From the NCBI GenBank assembly GCA_024639405.1, contig JAHEIL010000017.1:1-64000 (forward strand): 64,000 nucleotides of DNA, read 5' to 3'. Under the pieces are notes generated by a model. The model was not told the origin of the DNA. It saw only the letters and a list, made by a program, of their open reading frames with translations, and made no database searches. The translations under genes and the position numbers were made by a program. Below are positions 28,746-50,604 of this stretch, in pieces (position 1 is the first letter of the stretch; every line of letters starts with the position of its first letter). Source of the DNA: Crocinitomicaceae bacterium. GTDB taxonomy: Bacteria > Bacteroidota > Bacteroidia > Flavobacteriales_D > Crocinitomicaceae.

Positions 28746-29452
28746 TTCACTTAAAAAATTGCACGATTGGCTATTCATCTCCTTTGTTTTCTATTGATGA
28801 TATTCTACTGAAAAAAGGATCAATTTATGCTTTAATCGGTTCAAATGGTGCAGGAAAATCAACTTTATTCTCAACATTAACGAACCAATTATCAACACTC
28901 AGTGGAACAATAACAATTGCATCTCAACCTTTACAATCATACAAGTTGAAGGAAATCGCAAAAAAAGTTTCATTTGTTCAATCAAAAACGGATTACCCAG
29001 ATTTCTTAACAGTTGAAGCATATCTTGCACTTGGAAGAACGCCATACACCAATACGTTTGGTCGTTTAGCGAAAGAAGATCATGAAATAATTAAACATAT
29101 TATTAAGCGTTTAAAAATTGAAGAATTTTTACCAAAATTCATGCACAAACTAAGTGATGGTGAACGACAAATAATGGCAATTGCAAGTGCATTAATTCAA
29201 GAAACTCCCGTTCTATTATTAGATGAGCCTACTGCATTTTTAGACTATGGCAATCGCATGAAGATCATTAAATTTTTAAAAGAAATTGCTGTAACAGAAG
29301 AAAAATGCATTTTGTTTTCCTCCCATGATTTAGAATTGTGTTTAGAAGAAATTAATCAATTTTTATACATTGATCAAGCTGAAAAGAAACTGATATTAGC
29401 GAACGATTTAACAAAAGAAGCACTTTTAGAAAGAGCATTTAATCTATATTAA
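28742..29452 (+). CDS. ABC transporter ATP-binding protein (FecE/BtuD type)
   Basis: 236 residues. Walker A GSNGAGKST, signature LSDGERQ (SDGER in place of the usual SGGER), Walker B VLLLDEPTAFLD and the switch His in LFSSHDLE. Overlaps the permease gene by four bases (ATGA), completing a binding protein-permease-ATPase importer. No TonB-dependent receptor is in this operon. The 3' end overlaps the convergent Hpt gene by 14 bases. Confidence 0.93.
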   Translation: MIHLKNCTIGYSSPLFSIDDILLKKGSIYALIGSNGAGKSTLFSTLTNQLSTLSGTITIASQPLQSYKLKEIAKKVSFVQSKTDYPDFLTVEAYLALGRTPYTNTFGRLAKEDHEIIKHIIKRLKIEEFLPKFMHKLSDGERQIMAIASALIQETPVLLLDEPTAFLDYGNRMKIIKFLKEIAVTEEKCILFSSHDLELCLEEINQFLYIDQAEKKLILANDLTKEALLERAFNLY

Positions 29453-29783
29453 AGCGATTTTTTAGAAGCAAAAGAACTGAATTAACAATTCCTGAAAATA
29501 CAGCTAATTTTTGAGCTATTTCAGAAAAATCAACTCCTTCATTTAAACTTTCATTTTCAAGAATACGCACTAATTCTTTCGCTTCTTTTATTTCAAATAA
29601 ATCAATCGAAGGTTTTAATTGATGTGCATAAAACTTTACTTTTATACCATCTTTTGAAGTAACACCCTTGTTCAATTCAAGTAAACAAGATGTTGCATTG
29701 TCAATAAAAAGTTCAACAATAGATTGGATAAAATCTTGATCACCATTTGATATTGCTTCAATTTGTTCTAATGAATATGACAT
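29439..29783 (-). CDS. Hpt domain histidine phosphotransfer protein
   Basis: 114 residues, a single four-helix Hpt domain. The phosphorylated histidine is H54 in FYAHQLKPSIDLF. It would shuttle phosphate from the REC domain of the hybrid kinase to a response regulator. It starts 2 bases after the hybrid kinase stop and is the last gene of a three-gene operon. The receiver partner is inferred to be the NtrC-type regulator encoded first in the same operon. Confidence 0.88.
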   Translation of the reverse strand: MSYSLEQIEAISNGDQDFIQSIVELFIDNATSCLLELNKGVTSKDGIKVKFYAHQLKPSIDLFEIKEAKELVRILENESLNEGVDFSEIAQKLAVFSGIVNSVLLLLKNRFNID

Positions 29784-29785
29784 GT

Positions 29786-31810
29786 TTAAAACAGTTGTTT
29801 TTTAATTTTATTAAACAAATCTTCACGTTTAAATGGTTTAGACAAATGATCGTTCATTCCAACTTCTTTGTATTTCATCTCATCAGAAACAGAAGCATTT
29901 GCGGTGAGTGCAATAATTGGGATACTTGATTGCATATTATTTCTAATTTCAATTGTTGCTGAAACCCCATCCATTATTGGCATTTGAATATCCATTAATA
30001 TCAAATCAAATGTAGTTTGTTTTAATTTATCAAGCACTTCTTGCCCATTTTCAGCTAACTCATACTGAATTGATTCCTTATCTAAAATTGCTTTTATAAG
30101 CATTTGATTCAATTGATTGTCTTCTGCAATTAATATATTAATATTATCGAACATACTTGTTTCTTGCTTTAAAATTGGTTGATTATTTTTTTCCTTTTTT
30201 ATTTTTTGTTTAAACTTCAACTCAAAACTAAAGGTAGAACCTTTGTGTTTTTCACTTTCTACTTTCAAAGTCCCACCGAGCGATTCAATGATTCCTTTTG
30301 ATATTGGCAACCCAAGACCAGTACCACCATATTTTCTTGAAACTGAGGAATCTTCCTGTTTAAACGTTTGAAAAACAAGTGACAAACTTTCTTTTGCAAT
30401 ACCAATCCCAGTATCTTCAACTTCAAATTTAAGCAATTGATATGATTTTTCACTCTCAATTAACTTACATTTTACACGAACCATTCCTTTTTCAGTGAAT
30501 TTTATCGCATTATTGATTAAGTTGACCAATACTTGATTAATCTTATGTCGGTCGCCCATTAATCTTGGAAAAATCATAGGATCAATCTCGAAGTCAAACT
30601 GCAAGCCTTTTTCTTCTGATAATGGTAAAAAACTTAATTTTAAATGATCGAAAAAGTGGTTAAAATCAATTTCTACGAACTCAATTTCAACTTTATTTGC
30701 TTCAATTTTTGAATAATCTAAAATTGAATTAATAATCGATAATAAATTCTCTGAGGATTGTCGAATTGCCTTTAAATAGTTATGTTGTTTTTCTGATAAT
30801 TTTGTATCTAATAATAAATCTGACATTCCAATAATCACATTCATTGGTGTCCGTATTTCGTGACTCATATTTGCTAGAAATAATTCTTTTGATTTAACAG
30901 ATGTATGAGCCTTCTCAGTCGCTTCAATTAATTTGGCCTCCATCTTTTTTCGTTCCGAAATATCAACATGAATCCCAACAGATCCAATCACAACATTTTG
31001 TTCATTATAGATTGGTGCACCGCTTATTATAACCCATTTAACATCTCCAGTTTTCGTTTTTATTTTTGTTTCATAAACACTTGTTTGACCATCTTTTCTT
31101 AATTCATTTTGAACATCAAAATTTGAATTATCTTCTTTGTGAACAATTAATATACGGGCATTATTTCCTAACAATTCTTCTTCAGAATAACCAACTAATT
31201 CACAAAATGCTGGATAAACCTTGGTTATATTCTCTTCTAAGTCAACTTCTAACAACCCGAATTTTAAATCCTCAATTATGCGGCGATATTTTTCTTCAAT
31301 TCGATTTTCATTATTTCGAATAAGCAAATCGCGCTCTTTAATTAAATCCTTAACAAATCCATTCATTTCTTTTTGAACTTGACTTGTTGAATTTAAAATT
31401 TTTACTGCATCGATTATAGAATCATGAATTGGAAAATCTTCTTCTGAAAGATGATGCTTTGACAACGAAAATTGATCAGTTACAAGAGGCGTTCCGACAA
31501 AAAGTAATTCTTTTTCATTTTCAACAAGCAAAAATTGACCTCTTAGAATTAATTGTTCTTTCGATTTAATGGACTCAATTACCACCAAACCACCTATTAA
31601 TAATTTGAAATCTTCAAATGTACTTTCCGTGAACTTTTCAGAAATTATACATTTAAAATTTTGCGCAAATGGTTGATTTAAACATTTTCCATGTACTTTC
31701 AATAATGAATTCCCTTGTTCAATGATTACCATATTCGAATTGAACCGAAGATAAAACGGAGAAAATACATTCAAATAGTTACTTTCAAAAGTAATTGTTG
31801 TTGGTTTCAT
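29786..31810 (-). CDS. Hybrid histidine kinase: HNOBA-like, PAS, HisKA, HATPase, REC
   Basis: 674 residues with no membrane segment, so cytosolic. Residues about 10-135 resemble the HNOBA (H-NOX-associated) PAS-like domain: SPFYLRFNSNMVI, LRGQFLLVENEKELLFVGTP and the segment FPIHDS. A coiled coil (about 140-175) leads to a PAS domain (about 175-287, ending DISERKK). HisKA has H317 in MSHEIRTPMN; HATPase has NLINNAIKF, DTGIGI and GGTGLGLPIS. The REC domain (about 558-674) has the phosphoacceptor D607 in LILMDIQMP. Second gene of the operon, 44 bases after the regulator. Confidence 0.93.
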   Translation of the reverse strand: MKPTTITFESNYLNVFSPFYLRFNSNMVIIEQGNSLLKVHGKCLNQPFAQNFKCIISEKFTESTFEDFKLLIGGLVVIESIKSKEQLILRGQFLLVENEKELLFVGTPLVTDQFSLSKHHLSEEDFPIHDSIIDAVKILNSTSQVQKEMNGFVKDLIKERDLLIRNNENRIEEKYRRIIEDLKFGLLEVDLEENITKVYPAFCELVGYSEEELLGNNARILIVHKEDNSNFDVQNELRKDGQTSVYETKIKTKTGDVKWVIISGAPIYNEQNVVIGSVGIHVDISERKKMEAKLIEATEKAHTSVKSKELFLANMSHEIRTPMNVIIGMSDLLLDTKLSEKQHNYLKAIRQSSENLLSIINSILDYSKIEANKVEIEFVEIDFNHFFDHLKLSFLPLSEEKGLQFDFEIDPMIFPRLMGDRHKINQVLVNLINNAIKFTEKGMVRVKCKLIESEKSYQLLKFEVEDTGIGIAKESLSLVFQTFKQEDSSVSRKYGGTGLGLPISKGIIESLGGTLKVESEKHKGSTFSFELKFKQKIKKEKNNQPILKQETSMFDNINILIAEDNQLNQMLIKAILDKESIQYELAENGQEVLDKLKQTTFDLILMDIQMPIMDGVSATIEIRNNMQSSIPIIALTANASVSDEMKYKEVGMNDHLSKPFKREDLFNKIKKQLF

Positions 31811-31854
31811 GCTAAATTATTGTAATTAAAGGTCACAATTAAACCTATAAAATA

Positions 31855-33198
31855 TTAAATTTTACCTTCCTTCATCATTCTATAAATAGTTGATTTTCCT
31901 ACATCTAATTTATCAGCAACTTTTAAAACATTGTTGTTATAGCGTTGTAAGTACCATTTAATAATGCGGGTATTGTATTCTTCTAAAGTCAATTCTTCTT
32001 GTAAAAAATCCTCTACCATGTGACGGTGATTAAATTGAATATCGTCTGCTTGAATTTGATTGCCTTCACTCATTACTACGGCAATTTCAGCGATTGACTT
32101 CAATTCTCTGACATTTCCAGGATAATTGTATTTCATCAATTTATCTAAAGCAGCTGAAGAAAAATCTTTTTTAGGTATTCCATTTTCTTTACAGAATTCT
32201 ACTGCAAACGTTTTTGCTAATAATATAATATCGTTGTCTCTTTCGCGCAATGTTGGTAAATCAATGCGTAATCCCATTAAACGATAGTATAAATCTTCTC
32301 TAAAATTCCCGGCTTTAACTTCATCTAATAGATCTCGATGCGTTGCAATAATTATTCGAACATCAATTGGAATTAATTTATTTGATCCCAAACGACATAC
32401 TTCACGTTCTTGCAACACACGCAATAATTTCGCTTGCATATTGAGATCCATTTCTCCGATTTCATCTAAAAAAAGTGTTCCAGTATTGGCTTCTTCAAAC
32501 TTTCCAGGTTTGGCTGAATCTGCGCCTGTAAAAGCACCTTTTTCGTAACCAAACAATTCACTTTCAATCAATTCTTTAGGAATTGCAGCAACATTTATTG
32601 CAACAAGCGGCTTTTTAAAACGATCAGAATTAAAATGAATGGCTTTGGCTACTACTTCTTTTCCTGTTCCTGTTTGACCATATACAGAAACTGTAATATT
32701 CGTTTTTGTTGTTTTCTCTAATAAAGTAAAAACACGTTGCATAGGCGCGCTTGAACCTTTAATGTATTTTTGAAAATTATACTTTGTTGAAATCTCGCTA
32801 CTTAATAGTTCAACTTCATTTTGTAAGGTACTCTTCTCATTTGCTTGGTGTACAATATGCCATAATTTATCCATGGCTGTATTGTCCTTGATGATATAAT
32901 CATAAGCACCTGCTTTCAACATTTCCAATGCTATATTCACATCTTCCTGAGCTGACAAAACAACAACTGGAATAGATGGATAATCTTTTCTGATTTTTTT
33001 CAACAATTCTAAACCTGAAATATCTGGCAAAGTATGATCTAATGTAATTACAGAAGGTCGTTCATCAATTTTCTTTAAAAAAGATTTTCCGTCGTGAAAT
33101 ACGTCCACTTCAAATTCTGGATCAAGGCTAAGTTTGTGACGCAACATGCGGGAATACAAGGCATCATCTTCTACTACGAATATTTTGGTTTTTCCCAT
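31855..33198 (-). CDS. Sigma-54-dependent response regulator, NtrC family
   Basis: 447 residues: REC domain (about 5-120, phosphoacceptor D54 in LDHTLPDISG), AAA+ domain (about 146-375) with Walker A GQTGTGKE at 174-181, the sigma-54 contact loop GAFTGA at 221-226 and Walker B LFLDEIGE at 242-249, and a C-terminal Fis-type helix-turn-helix (VADKLDVGKSTIYRMMKEGK). All motifs needed to activate sigma-54 RNA polymerase are present. First gene of the operon. A palindromic site lies just upstream of its start. Confidence 0.95.
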   Translation of the reverse strand: MGKTKIFVVEDDALYSRMLRHKLSLDPEFEVDVFHDGKSFLKKIDERPSVITLDHTLPDISGLELLKKIRKDYPSIPVVVLSAQEDVNIALEMLKAGAYDYIIKDNTAMDKLWHIVHQANEKSTLQNEVELLSSEISTKYNFQKYIKGSSAPMQRVFTLLEKTTKTNITVSVYGQTGTGKEVVAKAIHFNSDRFKKPLVAINVAAIPKELIESELFGYEKGAFTGADSAKPGKFEEANTGTLFLDEIGEMDLNMQAKLLRVLQEREVCRLGSNKLIPIDVRIIIATHRDLLDEVKAGNFREDLYYRLMGLRIDLPTLRERDNDIILLAKTFAVEFCKENGIPKKDFSSAALDKLMKYNYPGNVRELKSIAEIAVVMSEGNQIQADDIQFNHRHMVEDFLQEELTLEEYNTRIIKWYLQRYNNNVLKVADKLDVGKSTIYRMMKEGKI

Positions 33199-33479: not shown

Positions 33480-33959
33480 TTGAAAACTTTACAACTGCTA
33501 TTTATAGTATTTTCATTTAATTCATTTGGACAACAAATCCACCATCAAACGAATGCTGCACAAGGCACGATTGTTTCGGTACCTTCTGTCGGTTTAATCA
33601 AACAAACGATTGGGCAACAAAGTGTGATTGGTAATTATGTTGGAGACAACATTTTTGTTGGTCAAGGTTTCTTGCAAGGGAATTTTACAAAAAATGCGAT
33701 TTCAACTACTTCGATTGAGGTATTAACCTACCCTAACCCATTTGTTTCAACTCTTAACTTTCAATTTTCAGCTGCTATAACAACACCTATTGATATTAAG
33801 TTGTATGATGTGGTTGGTAGAGTTGTTTACACTACTAAAACAAGCATTGAGAACAAACTGTTAAGCATCGATAATCTTGCTCTACCAATTGGTTCTTACA
33901 TCATTTCTTTAAAAGCTCTAAATTTAAATTACACCACCTCTTTAATTAAATCAAAATGA
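33480..33959 (+). CDS. Small secreted protein with T9SS type A sorting domain
   Basis: 159 residues from a TTG start; no ATG lies before the mature region and the TTG gives a normal signal peptide (MKTLQLLFIVFSFNSFGQQ). A short N-terminal region (HQTNAAQGTIV, KQTIGQQSVIGN, VGQGFLQG) is typical of small Flavobacteriales surface proteins. Residues about 85-159 are a T9SS type A C-terminal domain (LTYPNPFVSTLNF, KLYDVVGRVV). The mature part is little more than the sorting domain, so it may act as an adaptor or surface anchor. Overlaps the next gene (ATGA). Confidence 0.78.
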   Translation: MKTLQLLFIVFSFNSFGQQIHHQTNAAQGTIVSVPSVGLIKQTIGQQSVIGNYVGDNIFVGQGFLQGNFTKNAISTTSIEVLTYPNPFVSTLNFQFSAAITTPIDIKLYDVVGRVVYTTKTSIENKLLSIDNLALPIGSYIISLKALNLNYTTSLIKSK

Positions 33960-34561
33960 GAAAAATAGTACTTTTTGTATTCTTTAGCACACTTCTTTTG
34001 AGTTCTAACGCTCAAAATGCTTATTTATTAACTGGAAGTAATTTCTCCACCTATCACTTCAATAGTCCAATGACGACGCCCTTGGAAAGTGGAACAGGTA
34101 ATTTCTACGAAATCGGTTACAGCATGCAACTTAAACCGAAGAATTTATTCTACAATGTTGGAATCAATGTAAATGAATACAATGCTTATGCTCATTCAAC
34201 TGCTAATAACTACGAATGGAATACCAAATACTTAGGCATTCAAAATGCATTGGAATACCGCATAGCTTTGGGTGAACAGTTGAGCTTGAATGTGCAAGCT
34301 GGAATCAATATTTCATCCATTGTTTATGGTAGACAACAAATCAATGGTGTGTATTATAATTTAATGAAACAAGATGAATTTTCATATGTCAACATTGATC
34401 CATATGCTCGTCTTCAATTAGCTTATAAAATCGGTGATCTTGGCTGCATGAGTGTTGGATATGGTTTTTGTAAAAGCTTTTTTTGGATGAACAATACCTC
34501 TGAAAAACTATCAATCACTACCAATCAACTTGTTTTTGGCATTCATCTTAACATCAATTAA
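33956..34561 (+). CDS. Small outer membrane beta-barrel protein
   Basis: 201 residues. Signal peptide about 1-19 ending SSNAQ. The rest alternates polar and hydrophobic residues in about eight strands with aromatic girdles (YEIGYSMQLKPKNLFYNVG, YARLQLAYKIG, LVFGIHLNIN). This resembles OmpA/OmpW-like porin-family barrels of Bacteroidota. It could be an anchor or partner for the neighbouring surface proteins. Coupled to the gene before and 17 bases before the fibre gene. Confidence 0.72.
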   Translation: MRKIVLFVFFSTLLLSSNAQNAYLLTGSNFSTYHFNSPMTTPLESGTGNFYEIGYSMQLKPKNLFYNVGINVNEYNAYAHSTANNYEWNTKYLGIQNALEYRIALGEQLSLNVQAGINISSIVYGRQQINGVYYNLMKQDEFSYVNIDPYARLQLAYKIGDLGCMSVGYGFCKSFFWMNNTSEKLSITTNQLVFGIHLNIN

Positions 34562-34578
34562 TTTTTAAAGTTCTTTTT

Positions 34579-37500
34579 ATGAAAAAGTTAAGTTTTCTGT
34601 TTTTCTTATTTGTTTCAGCTCAATTATTTGCGCAAACCAAAGGAATCACCTATCAAGCAATTATTTACAATCCTTCAGGGGAAGTGATTCCTGGTGTAAA
34701 TAACACAACAGCTCCTATGGCTAGCAAAAACATCTGTTTGCAATTTTCTATTCTTGATGCAGCATCTCAACTCGAATACCAAGAAACGTTCACCACTTCA
34801 ACCGATGAGTTTGGAATGGTAAACCTGGTCATTGGAAATGGTGTGCAAGTTGGTGGTTCTGCTGCAAATTTTGATGCCATTACATGGAGTGCTGATCAAA
34901 AATCGTTAAAAGTAGCATTGGATGTTACGGGACAATGTTCTGGTTTTGTTGCTATTAGCACTCAAAAATTGGAATACGTTCCTTACGCGTTTCATGCTAA
35001 CTCAGCTGAAAATGTTTCAGGTATTATTCCAATTGAAAATGGAGGAACAAATGCATCCACTGTTTTGGGTGCTATAACCAATTTGGGATTAGAAAACGTT
35101 GATAACACAAGTGATTTAAACAAACCAATTAGTATTGCTACACAAACTGGGTTGGATCTAAAAGAAAACACTGCTAATAAATCAACTACAACAACTTTAG
35201 GTACAAGTGATGTCTTGTTCCCTACTCAAAATGCAGTGAAAACTTACGTTGATGCAAGTGCGAATACTTTAAATACAGCCATCAACAACGAAGCAACCAT
35301 TAGAGCTGCTGCGGATGCTACCTTAACTACCAACTTAGCAACAGAAGTTACCAATCGAATTAATGGTGATGCTACCTTAACTACGAATTTAGCAACTGAG
35401 GTTACCAATCGTACAAATGCGGATGCTACCTTAACTACTAACTTAGCAACAGAAGTCACCAATCGAATTAATGGTGATGCTACCTTAATTACGAATTTAG
35501 CAACTGAGGTTACCAATCGTACAAATGCGGATGCTACTTTAACTACTAACTTAGCAACTGAGGTAACCAACCGAACCAATGCGGATTTACTAAAAGAAAA
35601 TACGGCTAACAAATCAACTGTAACAACTTTAGGTACAAGTAATGTCTTGTTCCCAACGCAAAATGCAGTAAAAATATATGTTGATGGAAACATCACAACC
35701 GTTACGGCTGCCAACACAGCTTTACAAGCAACTGTAACGGCGAATGCTGCAGCTGCAACTGCAGCTAATACAGCTACACAAGCAAACGTTACTGCACTTC
35801 AAAATACGGTAACAACCAATGCAACAAATACAACAACTTCGTTAGCATTGAAAGAAAACGCTGCGAACAAATCAACGACTGTTACTTTAGGTACAAGTGA
35901 TGTTTTGTTCCCAACGCAAAATGCAGTGAAAACATATGTTGATGGAAACATCTCTACTGCTAACATAACAAACACTGCAGCTATCGCAGCAGTTCAAGCT
36001 GATGTAGACGCGAATGAAACAGCTGCAATTGCAGCTAACACAGCTACACAAGCAAACGTTACTGCACTTCAAAATACAGTTACAACCAACGCTACGAATA
36101 CAACAACTTCATTAGCATTGAAAGAAAACGCTGCGAACAAATCAACGACTGTAACTTTAGGTACAAGTGATGTGCTTTTCCCAACGCAAAATGCGGTCAA
36201 AACATATGTTGATGGAAACATCTCTACTGCTAACTTAACAAACACTGCAGCTATCGCAGCAGTTCAAGCTGATGTAGACGCGAATGAAACAGCTGCGAGT
36301 GCTGCTAACACAGCTACACAAGCAAATGTTACTGCACTACAAAATACGGTAACGACCAATGCAACAAACACAACAGCTTCGTTAGCATTGAAAGAAAACG
36401 CTGCTAATAAATCGACTACCGTTACTTTAGGTACAAGTGATGTTTTGTTCCCTACTCAAAATGCAGTGAAAACATATGTTGACGGAAATATCTCTACTGC
36501 TAACTCAGCAAACACTGCAGCTATCGCAGCAGTTCAAGCTGATGTAGACGCGAATGAAACAGCTGCGAGTGCTGCTAACATAGCAACACAAGCAAATGTT
36601 ACTGCACTTCAAAATACGGTAACGACCAATGCAACAAATACAACAACTTCATTAGCATTAAAAGAAAACGCTGCTAATAAATCAACGACTGTAACTTTAG
36701 GAACAAGTGATGTCTTGTTCCCAACGCAAAATGCAGTAAAAACATATGTTGATAATCAAGTTTCAAATGTTACAGCTACCAACCTTTCTGGTATTGTTGC
36801 AATTGCAAATGGTGGAACAGGTTCTGCAACTCAAAATTTTGTGGACTTAACAACGAATCAAACTATTGGAGGAACAAAGACATTTAGTTCACCAATAACA
36901 GTTCAAAGTAACACCTTGAAAGGAAACGGTTCAGGATCTTTCAGAAATGTTGGATTAGGATTAAATGTTTTTAATGCTACTTTAACTGGAACATGGAACA
37001 CTGCTATGGGAGCTTATTCAATGGAAAGATTAACTTCAGGTTCAAATAACACTGGAATTGGTAATGAAACAATGAGTTTTATAACAACCACATCCAACAA
37101 TACAGGAATTGGAAACAGATCGCTTATGAATACAACAGGTTCAAACAATACTTCTTTGGGAAGTAATGCTGCTGTTCAATTAACTACAGGAGACAATAAC
37201 TTATTTCTAGGAAATTCTTCAGGTACACAAATTGCAAACAACTCCAACTTAACAAGTTTGTCTAATAGTGTCTTAATTGGAGCTGGTGCTAGAACTGCAG
37301 CAAATGCTGAAACGAATGAAATTGTTATTGGATATAATGCTGTAGGAAATGGTTCAAATACCATTCAATTAGGAAATGCTTCAATAACAAATGTTAACAC
37401 AAAAGGATCTATAACAGCAAATGCAGAAATAAGTTCAGAAATAACTTCAAATATTACAATTAACAATGCAAATGCAGAACAATACAAAGCAAAAGTATTA

Positions 37501-37734
37501 ATCTGTAATCCAACGAGTCAAATCACCATTACATTTAGCAACGATTTGCCTACTGGATTTAATTGTATGGTTTTACAGAAAAGTGCAGATGCAAACAAAA
37601 TCGTATTTGCAGGAGGAGCTGGAGTTACATTAAAAAACAGAAATAACTATACTGCAACTGCAGGAAATTACGCCATCGCAACGATTGTGAATATTGGTGG
37701 TGGAATCATTGTCACTGCAGGTGATATGCAATAA
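34579..37734 (+). CDS. Large repetitive fibre-like surface protein
   Basis: 1051 residues. Signal peptide about 1-19. N-terminal domain (about 20-140) of a kind common on Bacteroidota exoproteins (GITYQAIIYNPSGEVIPG). It is followed by a phage-tail-fibre-like segment (IPIENGGTNAS, GLENVDNTSDLNKPIS). Five 18-residue repeats (DATLTTNLATEVTNRTNA type) and then 90-residue repeats (LKENAANKSTTVTLGTSDVL...) follow, predicted coiled-coil/fibre regions. Residues about 800-930 have YadA-head-like turns (SGSNNTGIGNETM, GSNNTSLGSNA). The C-terminus is a small beta domain. No T9SS sorting domain is visible, so its export route is open. A trimeric adhesin or fibre is inferred. Confidence 0.8.
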   Translation: MKKLSFLFFLFVSAQLFAQTKGITYQAIIYNPSGEVIPGVNNTTAPMASKNICLQFSILDAASQLEYQETFTTSTDEFGMVNLVIGNGVQVGGSAANFDAITWSADQKSLKVALDVTGQCSGFVAISTQKLEYVPYAFHANSAENVSGIIPIENGGTNASTVLGAITNLGLENVDNTSDLNKPISIATQTGLDLKENTANKSTTTTLGTSDVLFPTQNAVKTYVDASANTLNTAINNEATIRAAADATLTTNLATEVTNRINGDATLTTNLATEVTNRTNADATLTTNLATEVTNRINGDATLITNLATEVTNRTNADATLTTNLATEVTNRTNADLLKENTANKSTVTTLGTSNVLFPTQNAVKIYVDGNITTVTAANTALQATVTANAAAATAANTATQANVTALQNTVTTNATNTTTSLALKENAANKSTTVTLGTSDVLFPTQNAVKTYVDGNISTANITNTAAIAAVQADVDANETAAIAANTATQANVTALQNTVTTNATNTTTSLALKENAANKSTTVTLGTSDVLFPTQNAVKTYVDGNISTANLTNTAAIAAVQADVDANETAASAANTATQANVTALQNTVTTNATNTTASLALKENAANKSTTVTLGTSDVLFPTQNAVKTYVDGNISTANSANTAAIAAVQADVDANETAASAANIATQANVTALQNTVTTNATNTTTSLALKENAANKSTTVTLGTSDVLFPTQNAVKTYVDNQVSNVTATNLSGIVAIANGGTGSATQNFVDLTTNQTIGGTKTFSSPITVQSNTLKGNGSGSFRNVGLGLNVFNATLTGTWNTAMGAYSMERLTSGSNNTGIGNETMSFITTTSNNTGIGNRSLMNTTGSNNTSLGSNAAVQLTTGDNNLFLGNSSGTQIANNSNLTSLSNSVLIGAGARTAANAETNEIVIGYNAVGNGSNTIQLGNASITNVNTKGSITANAEISSEITSNITINNANAEQYKAKVLICNPTSQITITFSNDLPTGFNCMVLQKSADANKIVFAGGAGVTLKNRNNYTATAGNYAIATIVNIGGGIIVTAGDMQ
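35314..35583 (+). repeat. Five 54-bp tandem repeats in the fibre gene
   Basis: Exact 54-bp period encoding 18 residues of the DATLTTNLATEVTNR(T/I)N(A/G) type. Two variants (RING and RTNA) alternate in the first four copies, pointing to duplication of a 108-bp pair. Confidence 0.92.
35848..36750 (+). repeat. 270-bp tandem repeats in the fibre gene
   Basis: Units begin at 35848, 36118, 36388 and 36658 (exact 270-bp period, 90 residues); the fourth is partial. The copies are nearly identical in protein, with differences mostly synonymous. Two older, diverged copies of the LKENTANKST block lie at about 35158 and 35590. Confidence 0.93.
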
Positions 37735-37771
37735 AAATAAATCTATAAAAATTTTATATAAATCAAAACAA

Positions 37772-39229
37772 ATGAAAAAAATAGCAATTTACTTAATGGT
37801 TAGTTTTGCAATAAGTTCAGTCTCACTTGCAAACAATTTAATTCTTGGAACACCAACTATAAGTGGCAGTACACTTACTTTTACTATCAAATGGGACAAT
37901 AGCTGGAAAGTCACCGATGGACCTGCCAATTGGGATGCAGTTTGGATTTTTGTTAAAAGACAAACATGTGTGGCAGGAACAGTTAATCCATGGATTCATG
38001 CAACATTAGACGCAAGTGGTCAATCGGTTACTGGTTCAGAACTACAAGTTGACAACGTAACAGATAATGCAGGGGTTTTTGTAAGAAGATCTACCAATGG
38101 AATTGGTAACATTACTCAAGCAACAGTTACATTAACATTAGCAAGTGCAATTGGTGGTGACAACATTCGTGTTTTTGGTATGGAAATGGTAAATGTTCCA
38201 ACAGGTGATTTCTATATTGGAGACGGTGGTTACTCACAATCTGGTAATACTGTTTTTGGTAACTCAACTAATCAACCAGTTCAAATCACCAGTGCGACAA
38301 CAAGTTTAACTAAAGCACAGTACGGTAACCAAAATCAATATGGATCTTCTGTTACATTACCAAGTACCTATCCTTTTGGTTATAATCGTTTTTACTGTAT
38401 GAAATATGAGATCACGAGCGCGCAATATTTAGGTTTTCTAAATTCTCTCACTTATGATCAACAATTGCATAAACAACAAGACATGAACTGGAATACTACG
38501 CCTCCAACTTCCGCAGCTGGTACAGTATTTTTTAATTACGCGAACGTCAAAATTAAAATTAAAACACCAGGTATTTCTACAACCAGTTTGACACCTGCAG
38601 TATATGCATGCGACGCAAATAACAACGGAGTTTATGATGAAGATTGTGATGGATTAGGTTTTCCTATTCCATTAAGACAAGAACATTGGTTAACCTATTT
38701 GGAGTGGGCAGCCTTAAGACCAATGACAGAATTTGAATACGAAAAAGCATGTAGAGGTCCTTTAATTCCGGTACTTGGCGAAAAAGCTTGGGGTACAGAA
38801 GATATTGCTCAATTTCAATACATAAGCACTACATATGGATGTTCTTCAGAAACTCAAACTTATTTTGCCTTAGGATTATGTAATTATCAAACAGGTAGAA
38901 TGCATAGAGCTGGTAGCGCTGCGAGTTCAATAACAGATAGAGTTCATGCTGGTGCAACTTATTATGGAATTCTTGACATGACTGGAAGTACATATGAACG
39001 CTGTGTAGGTGGATGGAATTATGATTATTCAACTTATACAACTGCAAATGGTGATGGGAATATCAACAGTAATGGATCATGCGGCATGACAATATGGAAC
39101 AATATGCAATATATGAATAGAGGAGGTTCTGCACAAAATGGTCAATCTATTCAAGTTTCTGTAAGAAATTACAATAATGATCCTGGATATGGAAATATCA
39201 ATGCAGGCAGGGGTGTAAGATCTTTTTAA
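37772..39229 (+). CDS. Secreted SUMF1/formylglycine-generating-enzyme-like protein
   Basis: 486 residues from the ATG at 37772, chosen for the signal peptide MKKIAIYLMVSFAISSVSLA; an upstream in-frame start overlaps the fibre gene. An N-terminal beta domain of about 130 residues precedes the SUMF1-like fold (about 145-486): MVNVPTGDFYIGDGG, YCMKYEITSAQYLGFLN, LRPMTEFEYEKACRGP, GILDMTGSTYERCVGGW and the end NAGRGVRSF. The paired active-site cysteines of true formylglycine-generating enzymes are not evident, so a structural or binding role (C-type-lectin-like fold) is more likely than catalysis. No sorting domain is visible. Confidence 0.8.
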   Translation: MKKIAIYLMVSFAISSVSLANNLILGTPTISGSTLTFTIKWDNSWKVTDGPANWDAVWIFVKRQTCVAGTVNPWIHATLDASGQSVTGSELQVDNVTDNAGVFVRRSTNGIGNITQATVTLTLASAIGGDNIRVFGMEMVNVPTGDFYIGDGGYSQSGNTVFGNSTNQPVQITSATTSLTKAQYGNQNQYGSSVTLPSTYPFGYNRFYCMKYEITSAQYLGFLNSLTYDQQLHKQQDMNWNTTPPTSAAGTVFFNYANVKIKIKTPGISTTSLTPAVYACDANNNGVYDEDCDGLGFPIPLRQEHWLTYLEWAALRPMTEFEYEKACRGPLIPVLGEKAWGTEDIAQFQYISTTYGCSSETQTYFALGLCNYQTGRMHRAGSAASSITDRVHAGATYYGILDMTGSTYERCVGGWNYDYSTYTTANGDGNINSNGSCGMTIWNNMQYMNRGGSAQNGQSIQVSVRNYNNDPGYGNINAGRGVRSF

Positions 39230-39239
39230 TCTTAAAAAC

Positions 39240-39830
39240 GTGATAAAAAAAATCGTATACATATCAATTTTATGTTCATTGTTTTTGAACAATTCATACA
39301 GTCAAATTGTACTTACTTCGATGCGTGGAATATTTAATGCAAAAAAAGTATCTACTATGTTCTCTGGTGGACTTGGCTATGGAGAAGCGCAACAAACTTT
39401 AATACAAAATGTTTGTCAACCATTGGTTGTAGTAGATATTTTTTATGGTGGACTTGGTTATGGTAATCAACAGCAAAACATAACTCAAAACACTTGTACA
39501 CCGCAGCCTGTAGTAGATATTTTTTATGGTGGACTTGGCTATGGTAATCAACAGCAATATATCATTCAAAGCGATTGTATGCCTCAATCAGTAGTTGATA
39601 TCTTCTATGGTGGATTAGGAAATGGCGTTCAACAACAAAACATTTCTCAAAGTGTTTGTGCATCTCAAGTGATTATAGATATTTTCTATGGAGGATTAGG
39701 AAATGGTCTTGATCAACAAACCATTATACAGAGTGCATGCACTTCTCCTCCAATTCAATCAATATTTTATGGAGGAAATGGCTATGGCAGTCAAGAAAAG
39801 ATTGTGATACAAACCGTATGTACCTATTAA
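39240..39830 (+). CDS. Secreted protein of six 27-residue GGLGYG/Cys repeats
   Basis: 196 residues with a GTG start and a signal peptide (about 1-21, ending NNSYSQ). From residue 41 the protein is almost only six copies of a 27-residue unit, FYGGLGYGNQQQNITQNTC followed by about eight variable residues ending VVDI. Each unit has one cysteine at a fixed place, paired glycines and a Q-rich stretch. No known family is recognised. The regular glycine and glutamine spacing suggests a beta-solenoid or amyloid-like fibre, but that is inference. Last gene of the surface locus, closed by a terminator. Confidence 0.78.
   Translation: MIKKIVYISILCSLFLNNSYSQIVLTSMRGIFNAKKVSTMFSGGLGYGEAQQTLIQNVCQPLVVVDIFYGGLGYGNQQQNITQNTCTPQPVVDIFYGGLGYGNQQQYIIQSDCMPQSVVDIFYGGLGNGVQQQNISQSVCASQVIIDIFYGGLGNGLDQQTIIQSACTSPPIQSIFYGGNGYGSQEKIVIQTVCTY
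39360..39827 (+). repeat. Six 81-bp tandem repeats
   Basis: Codons for F-Y/S-G-G begin at 39360, 39441, 39522, 39603, 39684 and 39765, an exact 81-bp period. Copies two and three are the most alike in DNA, so the array has expanded recently. Confidence 0.95.
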
Positions 39831-39832: not shown

Positions 39833-39864
39833 AAAAGTCCAACATTACTGTTGGACTTTTTTTT
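39833..39864 (+). terminator. Rho-independent terminator after the surface locus
   Basis: AAAAGTCCAAC / GTTGGACTTTT with an ATTACT loop and a T run. It is only 8 bases from the convergent comM stop and may serve both. Confidence 0.9.
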
Positions 39865-43927: not shown

Positions 43928-46900
43928 ATGAAACCACTTTACCTTTTAATTTTTCTCCTGTTTTTACAGGTTAAAAATTTTGCACAACTTCCTGTTTTCA
44001 CCCTAAACACAACTGTTGTTCCTGCAAGTTGTCCAAATAATGGTGAAATATCATTTTCTGTAACAAATACCGCTGTTGGTGCAACAGTAATTTATCAAGT
44101 TTATGAACTTCCATCCAATACCTTATTAAGTAGTAATTCTACTTCAACATCTATTAATTCATTGCCTCCAGGAAACTATAGTGTTGTTGCTACCCAAAAT
44201 CTAGGAGCGCAAAGCAATAGTCAATCCGCTACTGTTACAGTAAATTCAACCTACATACCGCTTGTTTATGGAATAACTACAACTCAAAATGTTATTTGTG
44301 GATATGATGGCGTTATAAACACTTCAATAACAACAGGAATGCCCAATTATACCTATGAATTATTTGCCGGAAGTATTTCAGGCTCCATAGTTGCTCCATT
44401 ACAAAGCTCACCAACGTTTACAAATCTTACAAATGGTACATACATAATAAGAACATTTGACGCGTGTGGAAATGCATTTCCCAGTTTACCTGTAAACGTT
44501 GGAATTAATCCTCAAAACATAAATAATTTATATAATCAAATTAATTATTCATCCGTCAGCTGTGATTCAATTGACGTCAATCTATACTTAAACGGTACAA
44601 GCAATTCATTTCCAGCCACCTCAACATTGAGCTATACTGATGGAACGCTGCATACTATTACAGGAAATGCAGATGGCACATTTCCTACACAAACTGTTGC
44701 AATTGCAAATTTTCCCATCACCTTTACATCCATTTCTACGGATGCTTGTGGAAATGTTGATAATTTTCAAACTATTGCAACATTAAATACTAGTCAAGAA
44801 AACAGTCATAAAACCAAAGCATTGTGTGAACAATTTTATTATTCATTTGTACCAAACAATTTCTTTTCCAATTCAGGCTACACAATAAATTTCACCAATT
44901 CACCACTTGGTTTCAACCCTTTGACATACAATGCGAATCATCCGGGGGTTTTTAATGGTTCAGCAAATTATGGTGGACCTACAAATCCTTTACCAGAAGG
45001 AACATATACAGCTGTCTTAACTAATTCTTGCGGTTTGAGTTACACGTTGAATTTTACAACTTTCAAAGAAATTGATTCAAGTTTAAACAGTAGTGTTAGT
45101 TATAATAATTGCGGACAATCCATCTTATCAGTTTATAGAAATGATTTATATTTTGATTCTGTTTACCTCATACAAGCTCCAAATACTTTTACTCAAACTC
45201 TACCCTTCGACATTACATCCTCATTAAATTCAAATAATAGTCTGGTATCTATAGTTTTAGACCCAGGTTTTTATAAGTTTAAATTCATCGATTCATGTGG
45301 AATTACTCGATTTTTTGAAATTAATCTGTTAGCGCCAACTTTAGAAGTATCCTTTTCTCAGCTTCCAGGTTGTCAAATTGGATATGGAAGTTGTATTTTT
45401 TTTATGAATTGGATAGGAACTGGATTAACTTCAACAAGTGGGATTCAAAATTGTTGGATTACAAGCGCTCCTAGTGGGTATGGAAACACCTTGCCACATG
45501 ATCTCTCAAGCACCATCAATACAGGAAGCAACTATTATCATATCGGAAATTTGATACCAGGAAATTATACATTTAGCTTTAAAAATGCGTGTGGTGATTC
45601 GATTTCTAAAACTGTTATAATTGATGATTTTACTTTTACTACGACCAATTTTGAATACACTATTAATTGCAATTATATCAATTTACGATTTAATGTTTCA
45701 ACAAATAACCCAAGTGGAAGTTTTGAAATACAACGAAACATTAATGGTGTTTGGACATTCATAACTTCTATTACTGGAAGCAATATATGGCACAATTACC
45801 TTGCATTTGCAGAAGGAGATTATAGAATCATTTATTATAACACAGCTTATTCATCAAATAATTTAGCCGGTTTTGCCAATCGCTACGAAACATGTGTTCC
45901 AAATTGGAGTATTCCGTTCTCAATTGATTATCCAGATCCTGAAATTGAAGCAATCAATTCTTGGAATTGTGGTTTAGATAATTACAATGCTTATGTAACA
46001 GCAACTGGGGCAGGACCAATAACGTATAAAATCTTGAAATATAATGGCGCTCCCTTTTTAGTCAACAATGGAAACAATCCACTTTTCACAAATTTATCTG
46101 AAGGTCTCTATTTGTTTCAAATCATTGATGTTTGTGGAAACATTAGAACGCGCTATATGGAAATTCGTTTCATTAACAATTACATTTTTCCTGACTCTAT
46201 TTGTGATAATCAAAATGGATCGTTATCAATTTATGGATTTAGTGCTCTTAATACTATTTTAGGTTTCAAATGGTGGAAAGGATCTGATCCAAGTACGATT
46301 TTATCAACAACAACTTCACTAAACTTTACTCCATATAATAACAGCATTCATCAAGGTGAATATTTTGTACAAATCTATTCTATTTCAAATCCTGCTCTTT
46401 GTCCAGATACAGTTTCTTACATATTAAATACAGCAATCATACCATCTGCAGGCTTAGATTCATCTGCTCAAATCTGTAATGACAATACAATTATTGATTT
46501 AAGTCAATTTTTATCAACCAATGCTACAAGCGGAGGTTATTGGTCTGATACGGTTAATAATTTGACTTTTTATGGAAATCAATTGGATCTTTCAACTACT
46601 CCAAATGATACCATTCATGTCTTATATATTGTTGAAGGAGCGTGTAATTTTAAAGATACAGCCGTTTTTACGTTTAATGTCATCCAACTTGACAGTGTTC
46701 AAGTAATTCATTGCCCTTCTGATACAATAATTTATGGTTGTCCTCAAATCGTAGATTGGAATACCCCTATTTTCTTTACAAGTTGTTCAACGCTTAACGC
46801 ACTTTCCAATTTCAATGAAAATGATTTCTTTCCTCAAGATACAACGCTTGTAAATTATACGTGTAACGGTCCATTAGGCGATATAAAAACATGTAATTTT

Positions 46901-49597
46901 AATGTAATCATTTTAGATACTATTTCACCTATTGTAACTTGTCCAAATGACACAACAATTATAAGTAATGGTTCAACTTGTGGGAAGCTTTATACTTGGA
47001 CAGCACCAACATTTTCTGACAATTGTGATACAAATCCAATACTTACACTTTCAAGTTTACCCAGTGGTTTACAAAATGGATCTACATTTCCAATTGGCAC
47101 TTCTACACTAACATATACTGTAATAGATGCTTCTGGTAATTCAACACAATGTTCATTTATCGTAACTGTAATTGACACTACTAATCCTGTAATTAGCGCA
47201 TGCCCAAGTGATACGAATCTGAACAATTTAATTGGAATGTGTTCTGCAAACTATACATGGATTCCTCCTCAATTTAATGATAATTGCGACGATAGTTTAA
47301 CTGTTTGGTACGAAAGCTCACCAACAGCTGGACTAACCAATGGTAGTGCATTTCCATTTGGAAAAACTGTAATAACTTATTTTGTACAAGATAATTATGG
47401 AAATATTGATTCTTGCATATTTGAAATAAACGTTGTTGATAATGAAAGTCCACAAATAATAAATTGTGGACTAGATACACTACTTTCAAATGATCTTGGA
47501 ATTTGTGGAAAAGTATATACTTGGATTACGCCAACTTTTACAGATAATTGCGACAATGCACCAACTATAATTTTAACAAGTTGGCCTACAATTGGACTTC
47601 AAAATGGAGATACACTTCCTGTTGGCACAACTTATTTCAAGTACTTTGTAACAGATGAATATGGAAATTCAGATTCTTGTATGTTTGAAATCACCGTTCA
47701 AGACAATGAAGCACCATCATTTTTAAACTGTGCATCAGACACTACTATCAATAACAATATAGATATTTGTTCCGCTATTTTCAATTGGAATTCACCTTTA
47801 ATTCTGGATAATTGTGATGGCAGTCCTTCATTAAGCTTTCAAACTTTTCCAACGACAAATTTAATTTCAGGAGATCTATTTCCGTTAGGTCAAACAACAA
47901 TTCAGTACACGGCAATAGACTCCATAGGAAATGAATCAACATGTAGTTTTGTTGTAAATGTTATTGATGTACAAGATCCAGTTATTTTTAATTGTCCTAC
48001 AGACACTATTTTATCGAATGAAGCCACAATTTGTGGAGCGCATGTTACTTGGATCACTCCTACTTTTTCAGATAATTGTGATACAAATTTAACCATCACT
48101 TTATCAAGTTCACCAACTGCGGGATTACAAAATGGTGCTATTTTTCCAGTTGGAATTACCACAATGAACTACCTAATTGTCGATAATTTTGGTAATCAAG
48201 TAAACTGCTCATTTACAATTGAAATACTAGATAATGAATTTCCTGTTATTCAAAATATACCCACACAAATTTTAAATTTTTGTGACGGTGACAATGTAGA
48301 TTGGGCAACTATTTTAGCTTCCGATAACTGCTCAATCGAAACTTTTGATTACAAAACTTCTCCTACCCCAAATTTACTTGAGGGAACTCCATTTCCAATT
48401 GGAAACACAACTGTTACATACACTGCAATTGATCAAGCTGGAAACACAACAATTGACAGTTTTTTTGTACACGTTGAACCGCTATTAGTAGCTAAAGTAA
48501 GCGGAAAACATAAAGCATGTAAAGATGATGTTGTTTCGCTACCCATCACATTTTCATGTATCAATGGATTAGCTCCATATGAATTTATCTATTCAATTAA
48601 TGGTGGTCCGAATTTAAGTGTCATTTCTCCAAATTCAAATACAATTACAATTTTTCATCCAACTTCGATTTCTGACACCTTTAATTATCAGTTAATTAAT
48701 GTGATTGAAAGTTCTGGGAATTATTGTCCGCCTATTTTACTGGATTCAGGACAAGTAATTATATATCCATTGCCAGTTGCAACGATTATTGGCGATACGA
48801 TTGTTTGTCAATACTCTGAACCTTCAAAAATAATATTCACTGGTTCCAATGCAACACCAAATTATAGCTTTAATTATACAATAAATGGCGGTTTGAATTA
48901 TATCGTTCAAACCTTAAACAATAATGACAATTTATCAATTGAGACCATAACTTCTGAAATTGGAAATTTTGTTTATACATTAAATTTAGTAACTGAAAGT
49001 GCCAACAATTGTAAACAACAACAAGCTCAATCAATAATTATTGCCGTTAAAGCTTCACCTAGTGCTTCATTTTATTGCGCTCCTTCTTTCATAAAAGAAA
49101 CAGAAAATGTAGTCCATTTAGTAAATGAAAGTCAAGGCGAAACATCTTATCTTTGGGACTTTGATGATGGAACATATTCTTCCTCAATTTATTCTCCCTA
49201 TCATCAATTTTCTGTTGACAGTATAAATGGATATGAAGTAAAATTGACCGTGGTAAACGAATTCAATTGTGTTGATACAGCTATTAGATTTATCAATATC
49301 AAACCTGACCCATTGATTTATGTTCCCAATTCATTCACACCTGACGGTTCAAATTTGAACGATGTCTTTATCCCAAAAATGTCTAATGGAATCGATGAGA
49401 AAAATTATTCGTTCACAATTTTTAATAGATGGGGAGAAATAATTTTTGAAACGAACATCACAACTGAAGGCTGGAACGGTAAAACAAAAAACAATGAGTT
49501 AGTTCAAGATGGAGTTTATACTTGGGCGATCAAATACGCTGTTTTTGACAGTTCTAAAGTAATTGAAATGAATGGACATGTAAATTTAATGCGATAA
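43928..49597 (+). CDS. Giant HYR-repeat cell-surface protein with T9SS type B (CHU_C) domain
   Basis: 1889 residues. Signal peptide about 1-19 (LLFLQVKNFAQ). Residues about 20-920 are a series of Ig-like and SprB-like segments with regularly spaced cysteines. Residues about 1000-1515 hold six HYR modules (about 88 residues each; core TCPNDT, TWTAPTFSDNCD, FPIGTSTLTYTVIDASGN, CSF). Two further beta domains and a PKD-like domain (SYLWDFDDGTYSS, about 1735-1795) lead to the CHU_C sorting domain (VPNSFTPDGSNLNDVF, FNRWGEIIFE, NGHVNLMR). A secreted adhesin or gliding-related filament is inferred. The nearest neighbour on its 3' side is convergent. Confidence 0.87.
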   Translation: MKPLYLLIFLLFLQVKNFAQLPVFTLNTTVVPASCPNNGEISFSVTNTAVGATVIYQVYELPSNTLLSSNSTSTSINSLPPGNYSVVATQNLGAQSNSQSATVTVNSTYIPLVYGITTTQNVICGYDGVINTSITTGMPNYTYELFAGSISGSIVAPLQSSPTFTNLTNGTYIIRTFDACGNAFPSLPVNVGINPQNINNLYNQINYSSVSCDSIDVNLYLNGTSNSFPATSTLSYTDGTLHTITGNADGTFPTQTVAIANFPITFTSISTDACGNVDNFQTIATLNTSQENSHKTKALCEQFYYSFVPNNFFSNSGYTINFTNSPLGFNPLTYNANHPGVFNGSANYGGPTNPLPEGTYTAVLTNSCGLSYTLNFTTFKEIDSSLNSSVSYNNCGQSILSVYRNDLYFDSVYLIQAPNTFTQTLPFDITSSLNSNNSLVSIVLDPGFYKFKFIDSCGITRFFEINLLAPTLEVSFSQLPGCQIGYGSCIFFMNWIGTGLTSTSGIQNCWITSAPSGYGNTLPHDLSSTINTGSNYYHIGNLIPGNYTFSFKNACGDSISKTVIIDDFTFTTTNFEYTINCNYINLRFNVSTNNPSGSFEIQRNINGVWTFITSITGSNIWHNYLAFAEGDYRIIYYNTAYSSNNLAGFANRYETCVPNWSIPFSIDYPDPEIEAINSWNCGLDNYNAYVTATGAGPITYKILKYNGAPFLVNNGNNPLFTNLSEGLYLFQIIDVCGNIRTRYMEIRFINNYIFPDSICDNQNGSLSIYGFSALNTILGFKWWKGSDPSTILSTTTSLNFTPYNNSIHQGEYFVQIYSISNPALCPDTVSYILNTAIIPSAGLDSSAQICNDNTIIDLSQFLSTNATSGGYWSDTVNNLTFYGNQLDLSTTPNDTIHVLYIVEGACNFKDTAVFTFNVIQLDSVQVIHCPSDTIIYGCPQIVDWNTPIFFTSCSTLNALSNFNENDFFPQDTTLVNYTCNGPLGDIKTCNFNVIILDTISPIVTCPNDTTIISNGSTCGKLYTWTAPTFSDNCDTNPILTLSSLPSGLQNGSTFPIGTSTLTYTVIDASGNSTQCSFIVTVIDTTNPVISACPSDTNLNNLIGMCSANYTWIPPQFNDNCDDSLTVWYESSPTAGLTNGSAFPFGKTVITYFVQDNYGNIDSCIFEINVVDNESPQIINCGLDTLLSNDLGICGKVYTWITPTFTDNCDNAPTIILTSWPTIGLQNGDTLPVGTTYFKYFVTDEYGNSDSCMFEITVQDNEAPSFLNCASDTTINNNIDICSAIFNWNSPLILDNCDGSPSLSFQTFPTTNLISGDLFPLGQTTIQYTAIDSIGNESTCSFVVNVIDVQDPVIFNCPTDTILSNEATICGAHVTWITPTFSDNCDTNLTITLSSSPTAGLQNGAIFPVGITTMNYLIVDNFGNQVNCSFTIEILDNEFPVIQNIPTQILNFCDGDNVDWATILASDNCSIETFDYKTSPTPNLLEGTPFPIGNTTVTYTAIDQAGNTTIDSFFVHVEPLLVAKVSGKHKACKDDVVSLPITFSCINGLAPYEFIYSINGGPNLSVISPNSNTITIFHPTSISDTFNYQLINVIESSGNYCPPILLDSGQVIIYPLPVATIIGDTIVCQYSEPSKIIFTGSNATPNYSFNYTINGGLNYIVQTLNNNDNLSIETITSEIGNFVYTLNLVTESANNCKQQQAQSIIIAVKASPSASFYCAPSFIKETENVVHLVNESQGETSYLWDFDDGTYSSSIYSPYHQFSVDSINGYEVKLTVVNEFNCVDTAIRFINIKPDPLIYVPNSFTPDGSNLNDVFIPKMSNGIDEKNYSFTIFNRWGEIIFETNITTEGWNGKTKNNELVQDGVYTWAIKYAVFDSSKVIEMNGHVNLMR
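46940..48480 (+). repeat. HYR module tandem repeats (264-bp period)
   Basis: The C-x-x-D-T position recurs at 46940, 47201, 47465, 47729 and 47993, and degenerately near 48257: 88-residue modules. Divergence between copies is much larger than in the fibre gene, so these are old duplications. Confidence 0.88.
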
Positions 49598-49643: not shown

Positions 49644-50558
49644 TCAACTAACGCTAATGCTCTCTTGTTTTTTAAACAGTGACTTTTCAGAACTGATTTC
49701 AATGTCAATTCGCCCTAAATGCAATCCGCCCCAGCCTACTTGATTGATTAAAACTGGCTTTCCTTCCGAATTATTTAATTCAATTGGTTTTTCCATAAAA
49801 GTATGGGTATGACCACCTAAAATGATGTCAATATTGCTTGTTTGAGCTGCTAAAACACGATCTGAAACCTTATCTGTTTGGTATTCAAAACCTAGATGTG
49901 ACAAACAAATTACAACATCACATCCTTCTTTCTTAAGTATTGCTGCAACTTCATTGGCAACTTTAATTGGATTCAAATAAATCGTTTGTTCAAATTTAGA
50001 AGCAGGAACTAATCCTTCTAATTCGATTCCAATTCCAAAAACTCCAATTGAATGCTTGCCTTTTTTGAAGATGGTATAAGGCTTGGTTTTATCTTTCAAA
50101 ACTGTTTTAGAAAAATCATAATTAGCACATAAAAAAGGAAATTGTGCATGTTCACTTGCCATAAAAAACCCTTCTAAACCTGCGTCAAAATCATGATTCC
50201 CCATAGTAGCGGCATCGTAGCCTAATTCTGACATTAATTTCATTTCCAACGTACCTTTGTACTTATTGAAATAAGGTGTTCCTTGAAAAATATCTCCCGC
50301 ATCTAACAATATGACATGTTCCTCTTGTTGTCGAATGGCTTTGATTACTTCAAATCGTTTTGAAACGCCTCCCATATTTGGAAATTTACTATGATTATCA
50401 GGTAAAGGCTCAATGTTGGAATGCGTATCATTTGTATGTAAAATTGTTACTTTCGTCTTCTTTTGTTGGGTAAAAATTGTTTTACCAAATAAATTTCCAG
50501 CAAAAAACAACCCACTGGAAACCATTGCACTCTTTTTAACAAATGATCTTCTTTTCAT
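49644..50558 (-). CDS. Tat-exported 5'-nucleotidase N-terminal (metallophosphatase) domain protein
   Basis: 304 residues. A Tat signal (KRRSFVKKS, twin Arg at 3-4, hydrophobic stretch to about 25) implies folding with metals before export. The calcineurin-like phosphoesterase motifs are complete: HTNDTH at 41-46, DAGDIFQGTPY, MGNHDFD, SHLG and LGGHTHT. The usual C-terminal substrate-binding domain of UshA-type 5'-nucleotidases is missing here and is encoded by the preceding gene of the operon, 46 bases upstream. Together they should hydrolyse nucleoside 5'-monophosphates to nucleosides and phosphate in the periplasm. Confidence 0.9.
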   Translation of the reverse strand: MKRRSFVKKSAMVSSGLFFAGNLFGKTIFTQQKKTKVTILHTNDTHSNIEPLPDNHSKFPNMGGVSKRFEVIKAIRQQEEHVILLDAGDIFQGTPYFNKYKGTLEMKLMSELGYDAATMGNHDFDAGLEGFFMASEHAQFPFLCANYDFSKTVLKDKTKPYTIFKKGKHSIGVFGIGIELEGLVPASKFEQTIYLNPIKVANEVAAILKKEGCDVVICLSHLGFEYQTDKVSDRVLAAQTSNIDIILGGHTHTFMEKPIELNNSEGKPVLINQVGWGGLHLGRIDIEISSEKSLFKKQESISVS

Positions 50559-50604
50559 AAGTTTGAAATTAACTATAATATATGAACTTGGGTTGATTAT
50601 TCTA

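Follow-up and report, generated by a model that had tools for sequence, protein, structure and literature searches.

A compact five-gene operon of a Crocinitomicaceae bacterium is two widespread modules joined together. It lies at positions 33480-39830 on the + strand of the window, by which we mean the whole 64,000-nucleotide stretch analyzed (GenBank assembly GCA_024639405.1, contig JAHEIL010000017.1, positions 1 to 64,000). Module A comprises a mini-protein with a type A sorting domain of the type IX secretion system (T9SS), a small outer membrane barrel and a long fibre protein. Module B pairs a secreted protein of the formylglycine-generating enzyme (FGE, or SUMF1) fold with a repeat protein carrying a GG motif. 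From the genes and their relatives, we consider that the operon probably encodes an adhesin fibre on the cell surface whose tip can be exchanged; the mini-protein and barrel would hold the fibre, and the FGE/repeat pair would dock at its tip. The unusual point is that the sorting signal and the fibre are on separate proteins. Our search of the open-access literature (subscription papers were outside its scope) found no description of this gene set. A preliminary description of the window had the anatomy largely right and missed the modularity. It treated the locus as one five-part type, and the FGE/repeat pair usually lives apart from fibres.

Two modules in one operon

The coordinates first described for the five consecutive genes hold, as do the spacings between them (-4, 17, 37 and 10 bases). 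A single strong intrinsic terminator with a 12-bp stem and a T tail closes the set at 39833..39860 on the + strand. This geometry supports a single transcription unit. All five proteins open with a hydrophobic export-type segment, also as first proposed. Below, G-numbers denote genomes and L-numbers loci.

The fibre N-terminal domain is the most widespread part of module A, occurring in 156/200 family genomes and in 194/315 class genomes (107/163 genera). Among 40 family loci, hand-picked from the N-domain matches in family genomes, the mini-protein immediately precedes the fibre or its barrel in 34 and lies downstream in none (Fisher 2e-16). Counted by the nearest same-strand upstream genes, 24 of these loci have the mini-protein, nine have mini-protein and barrel, one has a mini-protein before two fibres and six have neither. 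In the best 30 class loci, which were examined with 1.5-kb flanks and include the window and G040, the mini-protein precedes the fibre in four, mini-protein and barrel in eight, the barrel alone in two and neither in 16. The linkage of mini-protein and fibre is thus tight within the family and weaker outside it. Where the two genes stand as a pair, the gaps between them are mostly 0-10 bases.

The three-gene order mini-protein, barrel, fibre, all on one strand, is found in the window, G017, G084, G040, G160, G197, L102 (an uncultured Bacteroidetes), L103 (Flavobacterium sp. UBA6195), L104 (Flavobacterium sp. Tobar2m-G16), L105 (the complete genome of Flavobacterium ammonificans GENT11) and G455 (L217). 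Genes 1 and 2 overlap by 4 bases in the window, L103 and L104, and in 9/17 of the three-gene loci measured. Diverged versions of this core occur in G226, G062 and G035 (L113-L115), where the shaft is collagen-like; in G035, it is accompanied by DUF7151 repeats and a Gly-rich tip.

Module B has its own life. We found the FGE protein, N-terminal domain included, in 14/200 family genomes and in at least 74/395 class genomes (at least 52/197 genera), the class counts being lower bounds since at most three candidates were scored per genome. Downstream on the same strand, the adjacent gene usually encodes a QYxGGxGDG-like motif just past the signal peptide. By a fixed pattern, such a GG-motif partner follows 20/29 class FGE loci versus 7/216 control genes (Fisher 6e-17), and the partners at three more loci (L163, L182 and L186) resemble variants of the motif by eye. 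At 13 family loci outside the genus pair (L036-L048), the stretches examined contain no fibre N-domain near the FGE gene. Two of these loci have oddities of their own: at L036 (13230-15209), the FGE protein carries an insertion of well over 100 residues in its variable C-terminal stretch, and at L037 (G110), the FGE gene is broken by an in-frame TAA with its partner intact, a possible pseudogene or assembly error.

The two modules come together in four genomes. The preliminary description had staked its case on co-conservation outside this strain, and the full five-gene order is indeed there in two Flavobacterium metagenome-assembled genomes (L103 and L104), with a fourth example in the congener G017 across a contig break. 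Recurrence of the order in Flavobacterium with near-equal gaps is more than chance would give. The state of the repeat protein also differs between the two settings. A Por_Secre_tail sorting domain is found in 20/25 of the partners scanned by Pfam, which is 20/21 of those outside fibre operons and 0/4 of those within them. Absence of the domain from fibre operons is what one would predict if the fibre takes over the anchoring.

An exchangeable tip

The four fibres that precede an FGE gene share one type of C-terminal tip. In the window, this is a domain of 120 residues (37372..37731, + strand), 80-94% identical to the three other tips of the same type. This tip type is followed by the FGE and repeat genes in 4/4 fibres, against 0/6 complete fibres with other tips (Fisher 0.005). 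Those other ends vary: Lcl_C-like in G084 and L105 (below cut-off), collagen plus Gly-rich sequence in G035 and further different ends in G017 copy 1, G062 and G455, with no FGE gene next. Other cores are followed by other genes, among them LamG and beta-helix genes. Since other cores have other tips and other downstream genes, the tip and the gene after it behave as a swappable cassette.

G017 has both kinds of fibre, with and without module B, in one genome. Its first unit reads mini-protein, barrel, fibre (2349 aa), LamG, LamG, after which the contig ends in 127 bases that match the beginning of its own mini-protein gene at 100% identity. Another contig opens inside a second fibre, followed by the FGE and repeat genes. 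The simplest reading of these sequences is that G017 would carry two tandem units with different tips; no second barrel gene was seen.

Compared with the two Flavobacterium loci, the window operon varies in identity along its length. The tip is 84-86% identical, the FGE protein 55-77%, the fibre N-domain 55-59%, the repeat protein 40-60%, the barrel 43-45% and the mini-protein 38-45%. The high identity of the tip could reflect transfer of the cassette or a tighter constraint on this domain. Elsewhere, the tip profile matches 1/394 other class genomes: in G393, a differently built protein of 350 aa carries the match at its end.

The mini-protein, the barrel and the fibre

Gene 1 (33480..33959, + strand, TTG start) encodes 159 residues: an N-terminal domain of about 70 residues with an IGQ-S motif, then the sorting domain. 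It passes both Por_Secre_tail PF18962 (37.8 bits, cut-off 27) and TIGR04183 (35.9 bits, cut-off 23) and is a predicted T9SS type A substrate. The mature part outside the sorting domain amounts to just 55-65 residues or so. According to parts of PMC10994853 and PMC12618676, PorV carries type A substrates, which are afterwards either released or linked to lipopolysaccharide.

Gene 2 (33956..34561, + strand) encodes a 201-residue OmpA-like outer membrane beta-barrel of eight strands. Its Pfam match to OMP_b-brl is weak (18.1 bits, under the cut-off of 28.7). An AlphaFold model built from ten sequences shows eight long strands in a closed barrel, with a mean predicted local distance difference test (pLDDT) score of 85.7, and its best match in the Protein Data Bank (PDB) is OmpA 9fzc (E 9e-8). 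The protein is not PorP/SprF, having just the weak OMP_b-brl match in Pfam and none in NCBIfam. An anchoring role for barrel and sorted protein, as first suggested, agrees with the anchor type of the barrel and with the linkage of mini-protein and fibre at 34/40 family loci.

Gene 3 (34579..37734, + strand) encodes the fibre, 1051 residues with a Sec signal. It has no type A or type B sorting domain that we could find: PF18962, PF13585 and TIGR04183 all fail to match at E<=1. Nor does any of 70 fibres from the family and class loci match the mini-protein profile, sorting domain included. The N-terminal domain (34579..35103, + strand), common to fibres in many genomes of the family and class, leads into a shaft of approximately residues 194-760 (35160..36858, + strand) in which T, N and A make up 56% of residues. 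The shaft DNA is built of arrays of 54, 108 and 270 bp, that is, repeats of 18, 36 and 90 residues. Hydrophobic residues recur with a period of 3.6 residues (18/5) over residues 341-720. In the first part of the shaft (residues 226-340), the period peaks at 2 and not 3.6, which makes helical structure less evident in that part.

Between shaft and tip is a YadA-head-like stretch with NNTGIG-type turns (36976..37371, + strand, approximate limits). These turns, noted in the preliminary description, have a mixed record: YadA_head (PF05658) has no match in the window fibre at E<=1, and the orthologous L103 fibre passes it (29.3 bits, cut-off 25), with the G084 fibre below cut-off. Fibre matches to Pfam AEP-TOTE, BOFC_N and Nbl1 are sub-cut-off, fall within the repeats and were set aside as composition artefacts.

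The FGE-fold protein and its partner

Gene 4 (37772..39229, + strand) encodes a secreted protein of 485 residues that passes FGE-sulfatase PF03781 (26.7 bits, cut-off 23.3). Catalytic FGEs have two conserved cysteines at characteristic positions. No cysteine is invariant among 16 aligned proteins of the gene 4 family, and judged by this alignment gene 4 is not a catalytic FGE. The sole PDB sequence match, fusolin at E 0.088, was put down to chance. FGE folds without the catalytic cysteines (PorK, GldK and GldJ) serve as docking hubs in Bacteroidota, according to part of PMC12421860.

The protein evolves at two speeds. Compared with G017, the gene as a whole has a nonsynonymous rate (dN) of 0.088 and a synonymous rate (dS) of 1.2, the latter saturated. 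The N-terminal domain (approximately residues 22-150; 37835..38221, + strand) is strongly constrained, with dN 0.017 over residues 1-150. Residues 455-478 (39134..39205, + strand), which belong to a C-terminal stretch with many N, Y, S and D residues, reach dN 0.437. A constrained N-domain and a fast C-terminus would fit a division into docking and ligand-facing parts.

Gene 5 (39240..39830, + strand, GTG start) encodes 196 residues with six 27-residue units of the form IFYGGLGYG...C, each with one Cys, and no sorting domain. Pfam, AlphaFold and repeat analysis agree with the identities first given for the mini-protein, barrel, SUMF1-fold protein and 27-residue repeats. The lectin-like FGE fold, first suggested as the tip, would not form the tip alone: because the fibre ends in a tip domain that belongs to it, the FGE protein would join as an extra subunit.

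How the fibre might work

We envisage all five proteins reaching the periplasm via Sec, as their sequences predict. The T9SS would export the mini-protein and keep it at the surface through its sorting domain, by analogy with other type A substrates. Gene linkage suggests that the fibre N-domain docks with the mini-protein, as well as with the barrel at loci that have one, and that these two export or anchor the fibre. The shaft would be a long, probably oligomeric rod in an 18-residue register, leading to the YadA-head-like part and the tip. On this tip, the FGE-fold and GG-repeat proteins may dock as a complex, offering a fast-evolving, lectin-type surface to a putative ligand; the rate pattern itself is observed. 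Tip and downstream gene would form a cassette exchangeable among cores.

Several observations weigh against this picture. An eight-stranded barrel has no pore for export and leaves the fibre's crossing of the outer membrane unaccounted for. The barrel is also scarce: its profile matches 9/240 family genomes, three of them weakly (G226, G062 and G035; E 1e-6 to 1e-5), 2/26 genomes in the genus, and nine loci in a named collection of 84,980 species, five from genomes already counted. At 28 further class loci, again with 1.5-kb flanks, the mini-protein precedes the fibre in ten, the barrel alone in two and neither in 16. The association of tip and FGE comes from four genomes, two of them congeners, and the second unit of G017 is visible only across a contig break. 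The FGE structure model (from three sequences) has a pLDDT of 33.7 and is unusable for finding a docking surface.

The strongest competitor holds that the modules are merely operon neighbours, a fibre adhesin and a functionally unrelated secreted FGE/repeat pair sharing one transcript. Module B does mostly stand alone, as at the 13 further family loci without a fibre N-domain, and the fibre core is mostly without module B. Yet the tip type goes with module B in 4/4 fibres against 0/6 for other tips, both types occur within G017, and the repeat protein lacks in fibre operons the sorting domain that it nearly always has elsewhere; we therefore think mere adjacency unlikely. Less likely again is that the FGE-fold protein is an enzyme modifying the cysteines of the GG-repeat protein, as a secreted pair akin to sulfatase and FGE. 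The class-wide linkage of the two genes (20/29), the single Cys in each unit of the gene 5 product (P0005) and likewise in many partners, and the family's match to FGE-sulfatase would all fit. Against these stand the lack of an invariant cysteine in the 16 aligned proteins and the partners at L164, L177, L180 and L185, which have the GG motif but no nearby Cys. Moreover, PorK-type FGE folds lacking the two catalytic cysteines are judged non-enzymatic in part of PMC12421860.

The remaining two rivals start from resemblance. YadA-head-type turns, coiled-coil-like repeats and YadA_head matches in two relatives might suggest a YadA-type trimeric autotransporter or a domesticated phage tail fibre, an idea we consider very improbable. 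The window fibre ends in a soluble-looking tip with no match to the C-terminal YadA anchor at E<=1, and the barrel is a separate eight-stranded protein. As for a phage, N-domain, shaft, tip and FGE protein are all unmatched by tblastn in 50,697 phage records, the single PHROG match is weak and of unknown function, and the neighbouring genes resemble ordinary chromosomal ones. We give next to no credence to a diversity-generating retroelement with the FGE domain as its hypervariable target, even though the FGE/C-type-lectin fold and the fast N/Y/S/D-rich C-terminal stretch recall one. There is no reverse transcriptase (PF00078) in the window genome or G017 (4/14 FGE-bearing genomes have one), and no template repeat in the window or its genome (best other match 31.9 bits).

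Relation to known systems

The adhesin fibre we favor works like T9SS-linked surface adhesins yet falls outside the type B adhesin class. Type B-domain adhesins depend on PorP/SprF shuttles, as set out in parts of PMC10994853 and PMC12618676. SprB-SprF is likewise a Bacteroidota pair of large adhesin and outer membrane barrel with T9SS-linked export, but here the fibre has no sorting domain, a type A signal resides on the separate mini-protein, and the barrel is OmpA-like with eight strands. Nor does the locus belong with retroelement targets, phage tail fibres, YadA autotransporters or catalytic FGEs. It shares head-like turns and a long repeat shaft with YadA adhesins and differs in having no anchor domain, another order of parts, a separate small barrel and a C-terminal tip. 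Like modular-tip phage tail fibres, it works with a conserved base domain, a repeat shaft and an exchangeable tip; unlike them, it has cellular Sec signals, no sequence match in the phage records searched and no phage genes nearby.

Gene 4, for its part, resembles PorK, GldK and GldJ in having an FGE fold without conserved catalytic cysteines, a fold reused for binding. The Treponema protein TvpA, a retroelement target, has the same fold. Gene 4 is unlike PorK, GldK, GldJ and retroelement targets in being secreted, in its own conserved N-domain and GG-repeat partner, and in the absence of a retroelement.

A wider proposal is more doubtful, although we think it worth stating. Many Bacteroidota may possess a split type IX fibre system, in which the sorting signal on a dedicated mini-protein, sometimes together with an eight-stranded barrel, exports and anchors a fibre that has no such signal, and in which the tip and the gene after it form a swappable cassette. 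In this lineage, an FGE/GG-repeat pair that is normally free-standing would have been captured to serve as the tip complex, with loss of the sorting domain it had before. If true, this would be a common and apparently undescribed kind of bacterial surface fibre, given the N-domain in 194/315 class genomes. Tiny, near-pure sorting-signal proteins would be adaptors for partners that have no such signal, and the count of T9SS cargo would change, with proteins lacking a sorting domain riding on one that has it. Swappable tip cassettes would suggest that hosts, prey or particles are being recognized, and it would become possible to test the FGE/GG-repeat pair, found across the class, as a binding module.

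Control signals and neighbouring genes

A weaker terminator-like match (six pairs, + strand) lies at 34928, inside the fibre gene. Read from sequence, the mature N-terminus would be Q in four of the five proteins; a Q-rule for mature exported proteins of Bacteroidetes is described in part of PMC5837995. A scan for sigma-70-like promoters gave 18 sites against 27.3 expected in shuffles and is therefore uninformative. A single match to the Bacteroidetes-type promoter pattern lies at 33184.

A divergent gene for a sigma-54-type response regulator (31855-33198) lies 281 bases upstream of gene 1. It is one of a set of genes beside the fibre operon (29439-33198) that also encodes an HPt protein and a 674-aa hybrid histidine kinase. 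In the congener G017, all that is left of the kinase is a 122-aa receiver (L051, 7209-7577), and the fibre operon is preceded by an AraC-type gene. A divergent AraC-type gene lies upstream of the core in G017, the g22 genomes, L102, L103, L105 and L217, and not at the window locus; the assignment is by HTH_18, tested on the G084 copy.

The window genome comprises 2.63 Mb in 52 contigs, and the window encodes further type A and type B T9SS proteins. Large proteins with HYR domains and reelin subrepeats, bearing CHU_C (type B) signals, are encoded at 43928-49597 and 13845-15788. On the - strand, 49644-57131 holds an Endonuclease I with a type A sorting domain, a lamin-tail protein with a sorting domain, a TonB-dependent receptor, a metallophosphoesterase and a 5'-nucleotidase C-domain protein, a compact set that looks like one for scavenging extracellular nucleic acid or phosphate.

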